Origin: Arthrobacter sp. MN05-02
GTDB lineage: Bacteria > Actinomycetota > Actinomycetes > Actinomycetales > Micrococcaceae
DNA length: 64,000 bases
Direction of reading: 5' to 3'
Assembly: GCA_004001285.1 (NCBI GenBank)
Contig: AP018697.1
Location: 1,922,001 to 1,986,000 of the forward strand
Positions 6,881-63,909 of the stretch are shown one piece after another. The translations under genes and the position numbers were made by a program. The notes beneath the pieces are model-generated. The model was not told the DNA's origin and did not search any database. It saw only the letters and a list, made by a program, of their open reading frames with translations. Positions within the stretch are counted from its first letter, which is position 1. The number at the start of each line of letters is the position of its first letter.

Positions 6881-8445
6881 TCACGGGTTCTTCCTGATGA
6901 GCGCGAGGTACATCGCGTCGGTGCCGTGCACGTGGGGCCACAGCTGCGCACTCGAGCCGTGTCCGGCGTCGAGGGATCCCCCGACGCTGACGGCGTCGAG
7001 GGCGGCGCCCGCGTCGAGGCGCTCGAACCCGGCCCGTTTCCGCAGGCAGTCGTCGACGACGGCGTCGGTCTCCGCGTGGTGGGGTGAGCAGGTCACGTAC
7101 GCCACCACTCCCCCGGGTGCGACGGCGTCGAGCGCCGAGCCCAGCAGCTCACGCTGGAGCGGCGCGAGGGACACCAGGTCCGATGGCTGCCGGCGCCACC
7201 GGGACTCGGGGCGGCGCCGGAGCGCGCCGAGTCCCGTGCAGGGGGCGTCGACGAGCACGCGGTCGCGCTCGGCTGCTCCCGCCCGACGTCGCGCCCGTCG
7301 CCCACGCGGACCGTCCACGAGTCCGCGGGCAGGGGCCGCAGCGCCTGGCGGACGAGCTGGGCGCGGTGCGGCACCGGCTCGTTCGCCGTGAGGTGGACAC
7401 CGCTGTCCTGCCCGATCGCCGAGAGCAGCGCCGTCTTGCCGCCGGGGCCGGCGCAGAGGTCCAGCCATTGCTCGGGACCGTCCGACCGACGGTTGCCGAG
7501 GTCGACGGCGGCCAGGGCCCGGGCCACGAGCTGCGAGCCGGAATCCTGCACGCGGACGGTGCCCGTCGACACCCCGGGGAGGCGGCTGACGTCGCCGCCC
7601 GAGTAGTAGGCCGACCCGGGAGCGAGGCGACCGGGTTCCGCGCCCTCGGTGAGTGCGTCGTCGAGCGTGGCGAGGCCCGGCAGTGCCACGAGGTGCACCA
7701 CGGGCGCTGCATTGTCGGCCGCCAGGAGTGCGTCGATCTCGGCGACGTCGCGGCCGTGGGCCACGAGCGCCTGGCGCAGTGCCCGGACGATCCACTCGGG
7801 GTGGCTGTGGCGCAGCGCCGCGATCGCGGTCGCGTCCGTCATGCCGTCGACGAGCTCGCCGATCCAGCCCTCGAGGTCGTGTGCGGTCACCTTGCGCAGC
7901 ACCGCGTTGACCAGCGACGAGGGCCCGGCACCGATCACGGCGCGCACCAGTCCGACGGTCTGGTCCAGCGCGGCGTGCGCCGGGACGCGCATCGCCAGGA
8001 GCTGGTGGACCCCGATGCGCAGCGCGTCGAGCACGGCGGGATCGAGCTGACCGAGCGGCCGGTCGACGCAGCGGGCCAGGACGGCGTCGTAGGTCCCTTG
8101 GCCCCGCAGGGCGCCGTAGGTCAGCTCGGTCGCGAACCCGGCGTCCCGGCGGTCCAGCGCGTGCCTGCGGATGCTCGCCGGCAGGACCAGGTTCGCGTAG
8201 GCGTCCTCGGCGGCCACGGCGCGGAGGACCTCGAACGCCACGAGGCGTGCCGGGTCGGCGCGGCGGGTGCGCTGCGACGGCGGCGGACGAGAACCGGCGG
8301 TCCCCGCGGTTGCGCTCCCGGCCCTGCTCGTTGCGGCGGCGCGCCTGCCCCGGCCGGGCTGGTCGCCCGATCCGCCGGCGCCACCGGATCGCCGGGACGG
8401 GCCGTTCTCTCCGGATCCGCTGCTCGTTCCTCCGGTACCACTCAC
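6881..8445 (-). pseudogene. rsmB: 16S rRNA (cytosine-967-C5)-methyltransferase, frameshifted
   Basis: RsmB (Sun/Fmu) methylates C967 of 16S rRNA. A GTG start at 8445 overlaps the fmt stop (GTGA). After a low-complexity Gly/Ser/Arg leader the NusB-like RNA-binding domain and the SAM-binding motif DLCAGPGGKTALLSAIG are in one frame down to about 7270. The rest, containing the catalytic VDAPCTGLGALRRRPE and [11 protein letters not shown] motifs, continues in another frame to the stop at 6881. One missing base near 7268-7274 (CCGAG where CCGGAG would restore REQPERDRVLVDAP) explains this. As read, the protein loses its PCT catalytic cysteine. It could be a sequencing error or a true mutation. Confidence 0.85.
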
Positions 8446-9393
8446 TCGAACACCAGCTCTCCGCGCGTCGCGCCTCGTGCCCAGTCGAGGGCCTTCATCA
8501 TCTTCTTGCCCGCCGGCTGGACGCTGCCGAGCACCACCGGCTCCGTGCCTGTCCAGACCCGGACCTCCCGGTCCACGACCTGCAGCGCGCCGGGCGCGGG
8601 TCGGCCCGCGGCGGCCGGCTGCCCGGTCACCCCGCCGGGGTCTCCCGCGGCAGGCGAGACGGGGCCGAGTTTCACGCGCTGCCCCTCGAGCGTGGTCCAT
8701 GCGCCGGGCTCGGGGGTGACGGCGTTGATGCGGCGCCGGACGGCGACGGCGGGTTCCGACCAGTCGATGCGGGCGTCGTCGATCCCCAGTTTCGGAGCGA
8801 AGCTCGGTTCGCCCGACTGCGGCGCGGCCTCCAACCGTCCGGAGGCGATGCCGGAGAGGGTCTGCACGAGCAGGACGGCACCGCTGTGCGAGAGGCGCTC
8901 GAGGACCTCACCGCTCGTGGCCTGCGGTTCGAGCGTCTCGGTCATCACGCCGAAGACGGGACCGGTGTCGAGTCCCTCCTCGAGGCGGAACGTCGTGGCA
9001 CCGGTGACGTCGTCCCCCGCGAGGACCGCGTGCTGCACCGGGGCGGCACCCCGCCATGCCGGCAGGACCGAGAAGTGCAGGTTGATCCAGCCGTGCTTCG
9101 GCACGGCGAGTCCGGCCGGCGGGGACGATGCCGCCGTACGCGACGATCGCGGCGGCGTCGAGGTCGAGCGAGGCGAGCTGGTCGATCAGCTCCGGCGTGA
9201 ACCTGTTCGCCCTGAGGACCGGCAGCCCGAGCTCCCCGGCCGCCGCGGCGACGGGACTCGGGGTCAGGACCTTCTTGCGGCCCAGCGGCGCGTCGACGCG
9301 CGTGAGCACGGCGGCGACGTCGAACCCCGCGTCGACGAGCGCGTGCAGCGAAGGGACGGCGACCTCGGGCGTTCCCGCGAAGAGGATCCTCAC
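8442..9393 (-). pseudogene. fmt: Methionyl-tRNA formyltransferase, frameshifted
   Basis: Formylates initiator Met-tRNA. The GTG start at 9393 overlaps the def stop by four bases. The N-terminal domain begins MRILFAGTPEVAVPSLHALV and runs in frame to YGGIVP. Then a run of four G on the plus strand (9121-9124), where three would keep frame, shifts reading, and the remainder ([20 protein letters not shown], then VTGATTF) continues in another frame to 8442. Removing one G gives a continuous protein of about 316 residues, the usual length. As read, the product would be cut off after about 90 residues, before most of the catalytic domain. It is translationally coupled to def upstream and rsmB downstream. 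Confidence 0.87.
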
Positions 9394-10002
9394 CGGGTGG
9401 TCCGGCCGAAGGTACCCGCGCCACCCGGGGTCGATGCCGCACCTGGCGTGAAGCTCGAACCGAGCGACCGGGACCGCTCCGCGGCCGTGCGGGACGTGAC
9501 GCTCCTGTAGTCGGCGCTGCGGATCGCCCGAAGGGCGTTCCGGCGGTCCTCCCCCTCGAGCCGGTCGATGTAGAGGGTCCCGCGCAGGTGGTCCGTCTCG
9601 TGCTGCAGCGCTCGGGCCAGCATGCCGGTCCCTTCCACGGTGATCTCCCTGCCGGTCAGGTCCTGTCCGGTGACGCGGGCCCAGTCCGTCCTGTCCACGA
9701 AGCTTCCGAGGCCCGGGACGGACAGGCAGCCTTCGACGTCGGACTCCCCCTGGGAGGGGCCTGCGAGCTCGAGGACCGGATTCACCACGTGCCCCTCTGC
9801 CCCGTCGACGCGGTAGGTGAACACCTGCAGCCCGACCCCCACCTGCGGCGCGGCGAGCCCTGCCCCCTGCCCCCTGCACATCGATCATCGTCTCGGTCAT
9901 GTCCTCGACGAGCCGGGCGAGGTCGGACCCGAAATCGGTGACCTCCACTGCCGGCGTGCGGAGGATCGGATCGCCGATCATGCGGATACTCAGGACGGCC
10001 AT
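9390..10002 (-). pseudogene. def: Peptide deformylase (first copy), disrupted by a 7-bp tandem duplication
   Basis: Removes the N-formyl group from new proteins. It starts at ATG 10002 (MAVLSIRMIGDPILRTP) and is in frame to MTETMIDVQGAG. There the 7-mer TGCCCCC occurs twice in tandem at 9861-9874 (plus-strand view). Deleting one copy gives DVQGAGLAAPQVGVGL, exactly the expected motif 1, and leaves a 201-residue protein with EGCLSVPG (motif 2) and HETDH (motif 3). As written, all three metal and catalytic motifs are lost from the starting frame. The C-terminus has an extra Ser/Arg/Thr-rich tail before the overlap with fmt. An intact second def lies at 63337. Confidence 0.9.
9861..9874. repeat. 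7-bp tandem duplication TGCCCCC x2 within def
   Basis: Two adjacent exact copies of TGCCCCC. The second copy is the whole difference between the observed frame and the frame that encodes deformylase motif 1, so this looks like a slippage or duplication event rather than a one-base miscall. Confidence 0.9.
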
Positions 10003-11208: not shown

Positions 11209-11282
11209 GCGGACGTAGCTCAGCTGGCTAGAGCACCACCTTGCCAAGGTGGATGTCGCGGGTTCGAACCCCGTCGTCCGCT
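11209..11282 (+). tRNA. tRNA-Gly (GCC)
   Basis: A 74-nt cloverleaf: acceptor GCGGACG pairs with CGTCCGC, anticodon loop TTGCCAA, T-loop TTCGAAC. First gene of the Gly-Cys-Val-Gly array. It differs from the fourth gene of the array only in one T-loop base (C here, T there). Confidence 0.97.
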
Positions 11283-11334
11283 CGCAAGTCACTGTATGGC
11301 CGGATCAGTCCGGTGGCCGGAGCGATCCGGTCAC

Positions 11335-11405
11335 GGTGGGGTGGCCGAGAGGCGAGGCAGCGGCCTGCAAAGCCGTATACGCGGGTTCGAATCCCGTCCC
11401 CACCT
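11335..11405 (+). tRNA. tRNA-Cys (GCA)
   Basis: A 71-nt cloverleaf: acceptor GGTGGGG pairs with CCCCACC, anticodon loop CTGCAAA, T-loop TTCGAAT, discriminator T. No CCA is encoded. Confidence 0.96.
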
Positions 11406-11431
11406 CACTACGGTACGAGCACCATGAAAAT

Positions 11432-11503
11432 GGGCGATTGGCGCAGCGGTAGCGCGCTTCCCTGACACGGAAGAGGTCACTGGTTCGATCCCAGTATCGC
11501 CCA
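11432..11503 (+). tRNA. tRNA-Val (GAC)
   Basis: A 72-nt cloverleaf: acceptor GGGCGAT pairs with ATCGCCC, anticodon loop CTGACAC, T-loop TTCGATC, discriminator A. It is followed after 5 nt by an intrinsic terminator. Confidence 0.96.
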
Positions 11504-11508
11504 CGAAG

Positions 11509-11532
11509 GCGCCCCCTCGGGGGCGCTTTTTT
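11509..11532 (+). terminator. Intrinsic terminator inside the tRNA array
   Basis: An 8-bp GC stem (GCGCCCCC / GGGGGCGC) with a tight loop and a run of six T. The T-run ends at 11532 and the next tRNA starts at 11533, leaving no room for a promoter between them. Confidence 0.85.
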
Positions 11533-11606
11533 GCGGACGTAGCTCAGCTGGCTAGAGCACCACCTTGCCAAGGTGGATGTCGCGGGTTCGAATCCCGTCG
11601 TCCGCT
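11533..11606 (+). tRNA. tRNA-Gly (GCC), second copy
   Basis: A 74-nt cloverleaf identical to the copy at 11209 apart from the last T-loop base (TTCGAAT). It abuts the T-run of the preceding terminator, so it must rely on read-through or on an unusual upstream arrangement. Confidence 0.97.
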
Positions 11607-13157: not shown

Positions 13158-13485
13158 GGATCTGGACCGCTTTCTCTTTCCGGCTGGGTGTCGGCGAGGG
13201 CCCCCGCGGGAGGCCGCTTCGCTAGGCAAGACTACGGCAAGGCGGTTCACCTGCCGGCGGCCCGTGCCGCTCCCGCGGGTCCTTGACCGGACGCGGACCG
13301 GACGCCGAGCGGACGCCGAGCGGACGCGGGGTATCCGGTGGCAGGTCCTCCCTGCACCGGCGCCGACACCGGGCAATCGCTGCCCCGGCCGCAAGCGGGG
13401 GAGCCGGAAGCAATCGGCCGGGCGCGTGGTTACGCTAATAAGGAAGAGACGCTCCTTCGAGCAGACAGCTATGCGAAAGGCCGCA
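13158..13485. other. 328-nt intergenic region with a short tandem repeat
   Basis: Divergent region between zapE and the sulfurtransferase. It holds two exact tandem copies of GGACGCCGAGC (13300-13321) and a degenerate third copy to 13332, preceded by related GGACGCGGACC. A TACGCT -10-like hexamer near 13433-13439 lies about 47 nt before the sulfurtransferase start. I see no gene. Confidence 0.6.
13300..13332. repeat. 11-bp tandem repeat, three units
   Basis: GGACGCCGAGC, GGACGCCGAGC, then GGACGCGGGGT. It lies in a non-coding divergent promoter region. Confidence 0.8.
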
Positions 13486-14840: not shown

Positions 14841-16091
14841 CTTCCGGGCCGGGTACCTTCCCACCGGGAAGGGCCCGGCCGTTCAGGTGTGCGTCCAGCC
14901 AGCGTTCGACGACGGCCTCCCACCGTTCCGGATCGAGGTTCCACTCCTTCGTGTGGCGGGCGCGGTGGAACCGCTCGAGGGTGACGAAGGCCGGATTCCT
15001 GGCGGCCAGTTCCGCCGAGGGCCCGATGGGGACGAATTCGTCGTCCTCGCTGTGCAGGACGAGCGTGGGCAGGGTCAGCTGCTCGGCCCGGGCGATCCAG
15101 TCCATGCTCTTGAGATTCAGCGGGGCTGCCAGTCCCGTGATCCGCCGCGCACGCCGGCTGGCCAACAGGTACTGGCCGAGCCGCCCGACAGGTGCGGGGA
15201 TCCGGTTCAGCTCGGCGTGGTGCGCGAGCACCTCGATCCAGTTGACGACGGGGCCGTCGAGCACCAGGGCGGCGATGCGCCGCCGGTGCCGGGAGAGGTC
15301 GGCAGTCTGCAGGACGATCGCGCCACCCATGGACCAGCCGAAGAGCACGACGTCGCGGGCACCGGAGGACACGGCGAAATCGATCGCGGCGTCGACGTCG
15401 TGCCACTCCGTCATCCCGAGCCCGTAGCGGCCGTCCGGCGCGGACGGCGCTTCGCCGTCGTTCCGGTAGGACATGACGAGACTGGTCATGCCGAGCCGGC
15501 GCGCCGGCGGGATCGCCCGCAGTGCCTCCGCCCGGGAGGCTCCACGTCCGTGCACCATGATGGCCCAGGTGCCGGCAGGAGCTTCGGCGCGGACGAGCCA
15601 GGCCGGGGCCGAGCCGCCCTCGACGGGGATGCTCACCTCCTCCTCGGCGAAACCCATCGCGGCCGGTGACGGGTAGACGGCCCCACCCCACCACCCGCGG
15701 GTCGCCGAGGCCAGGTCGCCCGTGTAGACCTCCTCCACCTCCCGCTCCACCGTCCCTCCCGGGGCACGTAGGACCGGATGGCGCCCACGCGGGCGTGGCC
15801 GGAGCCCCCGTCGAAGTGCAGGCTGTAGGTACCCTCGATGGTCGTGTCCTCGTTCGCGGGGAGGATGACGGTGCGGTTGCCCGCCTGTCCGACCACCGCG
15901 AGGATCTCCAGGTTCTCGTCGCGCCTGCGCGCCGGGGTGACGATCTGCCGGGCGAAGTACACGGCGAGCCCCGACACCGCACCGGCCGCGGAGGACGCGA
16001 GCGCAGCTCCCGCACCCACCCCGAGTGCGGTCCACTTGAGCCAGGGAGCCCGAACCCGCTGCGTCGCGGCCGTCGACGTTCCAGTTGCCAT
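14824..16091 (-). pseudogene. Membrane-anchored alpha/beta hydrolase, frameshifted
   Basis: A serine hydrolase with an N-terminal membrane segment (WTALGVGAGAALASSAAGAV) starting near ATG 16091. The first about 110 residues, to RSYVPREG, are in one frame; the rest (EEVYTGDLASATRGWWG, nucleophile elbow GWSMGG, acid DDEF, histidine RHTKEW) is in another, ending at 14824. One missing G near 15753-15756 (GAGGGACG where GAGGGGACG fits) explains it. Removing the lesion gives about 422 residues. The catalytic domain also lacks a clear independent start, so the gene is probably inactive as read. Sequencing error is possible. Its substrate is unknown. Confidence 0.82.
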
Positions 16092-51945: not shown

Positions 51946-52494
51946 GCTCCACCGACCACGACGAGGCAGGGTCGCCGGGCGAGAACCGGCCGCAGGACGG
52001 GGCCCCCTCGACTCCCGGCCCCGGCCGGTCCCTCCCGCTCCCGGTCGCCGGCGTCCGTCCCCCGTTACCGGCCGAACGGCTCGTCGTGGCGGGGCAGCAG
52101 TTCAGCCAGCCTCAGTACACGGACAACTTCTACGAGGCGGTCGGCGGTCATGCGACGTTCGTGACGCTCGTCGATGCGTTCTACGACGGCGTCGCCGGCG
52201 ACGACGTCCTCCGGCCCATGTACCCCGAGGAGGATCTGGGGCCCGCGAAGGAACGGCTCCTGCTGTTCCTCGAGCAGTACTGGGGCGGACCGAAGACCTA
52301 CGGGGAGCAGCGTGGACACCCGAGGCTGCGCATGCGGCACATGCCCTTCCGCGTCGGCCCCGAGGCGCGGGACCGCTGGTTGCACCACATGCGTGCCGCC
52401 GTGGACGTCCTGGATCTCGCTCCCCCTGCACGAGGCCACATTGTGGGACTACCTCGACCGCGCCGCACACTCGATGGTCAACGCGGCGGACTGA
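51942..52494 (+). pseudogene. glbO: Group II truncated haemoglobin, frameshifted near its C-terminus
   Basis: An oxygen- or NO-binding trHbO-type globin, with a Pro-rich N-terminal extension of about 60 residues. The globin core [40 protein letters not shown] (proximal-type His) and [16 protein letters not shown] is in frame. A run of five C at 52423-52427 breaks the frame; removing one gives [22 protein letters not shown] and the stop at 52494. As read, only the last helix is altered and the frame continues past this point. It is co-transcribed with mscS. Confidence 0.8.
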
Positions 52495-63336: not shown

Positions 63337-63909
63337 ATGGCTGTCCACCCCATCACCATCACGGGCGAACCGGTCCTCCACCGGCGTGCCCAGCCGGTCG
63401 AGGCCTTCGACGAGGAGCTGCGCACGCTGATCGCCGACATGTTCGAGACCATGGATGTCGCCAACGGCGTGGGCCTCGCGGCGCCGCAGATCGGCGTGGG
63501 GCTGCGCATCTTCGTCTACGGCATGGAGAACGACGACGGCGTTGCTCCGCGCGGTGTCCTCGTCAACCCGACGCTCGTGACCTCGAAGGTGCCCGGATCC
63601 GAGCCGGACCCGGACGACGAATCGGAGGGCTGCCTCTCCGTACCCGGGGAGGCGTTCCCCCTCAAACGCGCCGACTGGGCGCGGGTCTCCGGGTTCGACG
63701 GTGACGGCGCCCCGGTCGAGTTCGAGGCGACGGGCTGGTTCGCCCGATGCATGCAGCACGAGTACGACCACCTGGACGGGAAGCTCTACGTCGACCGCCT
63801 CGACAACCGGCAGTCCAGAAAGGCCAAGAAGGCCCTGAAGAACCACGGGTGGGGCGTCCCCGGACTCACCTGGATGCCCGGCGTCGATCCGGACCCGTTC
63901 GGTCACTAG
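63337..63909 (+). CDS. def: Peptide deformylase (second, intact copy)
   Basis: Removes N-formyl groups. ATG 63337 gives 190 residues. All three catalytic motifs are present: G44-VGLAAPQ (residues 44-51), E97-G-C99-L-S-V-P-G and H141-E-Y-D-H145. It is only about 40 percent like the broken copy by eye, so the two are paralogues, not recent duplicates. If the first copy is truly inactive this one must carry deformylation. It follows acyl-CoA dehydrogenase by 5 nt. Confidence 0.96.

Follow-up and report, generated by a model that had tools for sequence, protein, structure and literature searches.

Replication slippage, as generally understood, duplicates an exact unit beside a pre-existing short repeat, and the 7-bp duplication described here in a peptide deformylase gene (def) of Arthrobacter sp. 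MN05-02 has this form, although it is seen in an assembly that has false indels elsewhere. The other close comparison is technical. PMC12007338 reports bacterial assemblies from long reads in which hundreds of genes are frameshifted, and the present case resembles the indel errors described there for Kastor in that many conserved genes are split by short indels in a two-contig assembly while relatives are intact. It differs in its 7-bp unit, which exceeds the homopolymer errors usually described in that work. Our analysis makes it quite probable that the extra 7 bp is a spurious gain of one repeat unit in an assembly prone to indels and not a real mutation. Positions below are those of the window, the whole 64,000-nucleotide stretch analysed, unless otherwise stated.

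The duplication interrupts a conserved def gene that runs on the minus strand from about 10002 to 9390 and is divided as follows:

9878–10002, minus strand: 5' portion of def, sharing the frame of the start codon (MAVLSIRMIGDPILRTP...), identified by a deformylase model match
9390–9881, minus strand: open frame with the 3' part of def (GLAAPQ, EGCLS, HETDH), which the extra 7 bp has put in another frame
9861–9874, minus strand: two tandem TGCCCCC units (plus-strand letters), one unit above any of 31 aligned relatives

The frame from the start codon reads ...MIDVQGAGGRARR..., and the other reads ...GQGAGLAAPQVGVG.... In a profile search, deformylase models matched both pieces, in two different frames, across which the motifs G.G.AA.Q, EGC.S and HE.DH are found; we take these to be the three peptide deformylase motifs. 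The locus is thus like other members of the family (PF01327) in its profile match and its usual motifs, and unlike them in occupying two frames owing to the extra 7 bp. With that insertion, the frame from the def start stays open into the neighbouring gene, fmt, giving a 364-residue read-through (8908–10002, minus strand) that matches fmt at its end. The two genes overlap out of frame with each other, so this read-through is probably due to chance.

On the plus strand, TGCCCCC is read twice back to back, at 9861–9867 and 9868–9874, within a period-7 array at 9858–9877 of 2.9 copies and 100% match (Tandem Repeats Finder). The first-pass annotation had claimed an exact tandem duplication that breaks def, and both parts of that claim are borne out. 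The sequence around it on the coding strand, GCAGGGGGCAGGG, is a short G+C-rich repeat. The repeat at 9861–9874 is the only lag-7 run of 13 exact matches in the window, and such an array would seldom arise by chance: of 60 simulations of the window under a first-order Markov model, 1 produced a lag-7 run of that length. When lags 4–12 were pooled, each simulation contained a mean of 0.05 such runs, against two in the window, the second being a lag-11 run at 13299–13327. The latter lies in an 11-bp tandem array (13285–13327; 3.9 copies, 93% match) with a CGGACGCCGAG-like unit.

The annotation had also proposed comparing the locus in related strains. This was carried out for def, and the extra 7 bp was found in none of 38 aligned rows, representing 31 distinct Arthrobacter genomes, seven of which are present twice; the rows comprise 29 of the 30 loci of one fetched set, the thirtieth being that of the window itself, and 9 of the 80 loci of another. 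The relatives have a plain open def frame, most of them with no repeat at all at the site. The closest genome, with 93% DNA identity over def, is that of A. agilis UMCV2, and the window's genome belongs to an Arthrobacter close to A. agilis. At the repeat, UMCV2 shows the window's local sequence minus one unit, with two GCAGGG units 7 bp apart. The window's def thus differs at this site from the intact copies in its near kin. In addition, an intact database protein of 201 residues (P0002) contains both def pieces of the window in one frame, without a mismatch, so an intact def allele encoding the same protein exists somewhere. It also agrees with the earlier prediction that removing one unit would restore a 201-residue deformylase. 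The contig that encodes this protein is 2,936 bases long, and the protein may come from another strain.

Frame breaks were then counted in the window and in a 200-kb stretch lying 22–222 kb upstream of it, within those parts of genes in which a second relative bears out the open frame (validated coding sequence). The genome, of 3.64 Mb in two contigs and 96.4% complete, contained 16 candidate breaks in 119.4 kb of such sequence. The same census in three relatives gave none in 66.8 kb, two in 67.2 kb (G006) and five in 67.5 kb (G023), that is, seven over 201.5 kb in all, these control breaks being census-level candidates. Sixteen of the 23 breaks thus fall in the window's genome (binomial p 0.002), a comparison in which three query genomes for the target against two for the controls favours breaks in the target. 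Restriction to sites backed by two queries (14 of 16) gave a binomial p of 5e-5, which is biased by the same unequal query numbers. UMCV2 proved unfit as a yardstick for the whole window, as the 72 kb taken from it contained six shared genes and 1429 N. Its assembly consists of one contig, yet has a listed completeness of 89%, and given this value it may also be indel-rich.

Nucleotide alignments confirmed 11 of the 16 candidates, which amounts to about one for every 11 kb of the validated sequence. The sites left out of the confirmed set, by census coordinate, are 84214, which precedes the start of its gene; 3712, before the start of rpsD; 8279, in the rsmB linker, where the indels relative to UMCV2 sum to -12; and 93330 and 138719, with one query each. 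A +1 break at 52421, with one relative behind it, was kept out of the count. Besides the +7 in def, the breaks confirmed within the window, together with the fmt gene, are:

7258–7270, minus strand: -4 frame break in rsmB (nucleotide alignment)
8442–9393, minus strand: fmt, methionyl-tRNA formyltransferase, in two frames (profile search)
9121–9125, minus strand: +1 break of the fmt frame, with one base above all aligned relatives (nucleotide alignment)
15753–15756, minus strand: -1 frame break in a conserved gene without a name (nucleotide alignment)

Outside the window, the confirmed breaks are in prcA (+1), an unnamed gene (+1), hemW (+2), lepA (+2), holA (-2), leuS (+2) and priA (-2). The ten indels other than that of def therefore comprise three of +1, three of +2, one of -1, two of -2 and one of -4, all smaller than the def insertion. 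In five of the seven confirmed insertions an adjacent repeat is lengthened: a C in prcA, a G in fmt, a GC in lepA and in leuS, and the 7-bp unit in def.

Leucyl-tRNA synthetase is essential, and the profile search found one leuS locus above the family cut-off in the genome. It is split by a +2 insertion of a GC unit just after the HIGH motif region (contig 1 of this genome, about 1886950), so that its HIGH motif and the remainder of the enzyme lie in different frames. As the only locus of an essential gene is broken, this indel cannot be true of the living cell, and the assembly must contain false indels. Two further genes have one locus each: prcA, which is also split, and holA, whose single locus above the cut-off ends at model position 289 of 316.

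At a rate of about one confirmed break of this false type per 11 kb, error is what any one frame break in the assembly should first be put down to, that of def included, and from its short G+C-rich local repeat we infer that the def site belongs to the same error class as the other indels. Errors in unit number, in the reads or in the consensus, occur in repeats of this kind, and the cell itself would most likely carry an intact def with one TGCCCCC unit fewer. The explanation set against this, which we regard as unlikely, is that the sequenced strain recently acquired a genuine duplication by slippage. Under it, the GCAGGG units lying 7 bp apart would have mispaired at replication and a unit would have been gained; def would have been lost, and two other deformylases would carry on. 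UMCV2 does have this direct repeat, so a substrate for slippage exists, and the window has the exact duplication. Two other def loci in the genome, one of them in the window, are intact with their catalytic motifs (HExDH among them), and the loss of the broken gene should therefore be survivable:

63346–63813, plus strand: core domain of a second peptide deformylase gene, which is intact (profile search)

A repair protein is also relevant here: the NucS_C domain was found in the genome, and NucS-type repair is reported to be unable to correct short indels (PMC8228993). For the same two reasons, loss of NucS was rejected as the source of the many indels. The size of the def insertion also speaks for slippage, but the GC-unit expansions in lepA and leuS mean that 7 bp is no strong argument against error. 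The protein on both sides of the break is identical to the intact copy, which indicates no decay since. The first-pass annotation held the duplication to be a slippage mutation, hard to explain as an error. Its mechanism retains some small probability through the GCAGGG units, whereas its dismissal of error is not supported, as the assembly holds ten other short indels, that of the only leuS among them, which cannot all be real. Assembly error is thus the likelier reading at def, and mutation, as yet unproven, the less likely one; if it did occur, one of three deformylase genes would have been lost, an ordinary event.

The breaks in rsmB, fmt and def, three of the eleven confirmed, lie within 2.6 kb, a clustering that might reflect local decay and speaks against the error reading, as do the matches listed, among which there was neither an identical intact fmt (best other, 92%) nor an identical intact rsmB (best other, 97% over 63%). 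It is very doubtful that the duplication is real and, together with the fmt and rsmB breaks, marks a recent loss of the fmt-def cluster in a strain sustained by the two other deformylases. A joint genuine decay of rsmB-fmt-def, in a lineage abandoning N-formylation via that operon, is more improbable still. The three neighbours are all frame-broken, and no second, intact fmt scored above the family cut-off in the rest of the genome. Against decay, unrelated and essential genes are broken likewise, and polarised counts for rsmB and fmt together show no excess of substitutions on the window side (26 there, 42 for UMCV2), while def has 12 unique to the window against 4. The def figure speaks for a real mutation, though its protein equals that of the intact copy. 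Were it true, loss of fmt and of the def linked to it would provide a test of bacterial life without N-formylation. Least credible of all are programmed frameshifting and phase variation, in which a 7-bp repeat would toggle def. Since 7 is not divisible by three, a change in the number of units would put def in another frame; the array has only 2.9 copies, however, and these explanations were rejected on the comparison with the 31 relatives, in which the extra unit is absent, the frame is plainly open and the repeat is mostly lacking.

The preferred reading of a false insertion has a practical consequence: the apparent pseudogenes of this assembly should be checked against the reads before they are taken as biology. 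The window also contains four tRNA genes within 400 bases (11209–11606), on the plus strand.
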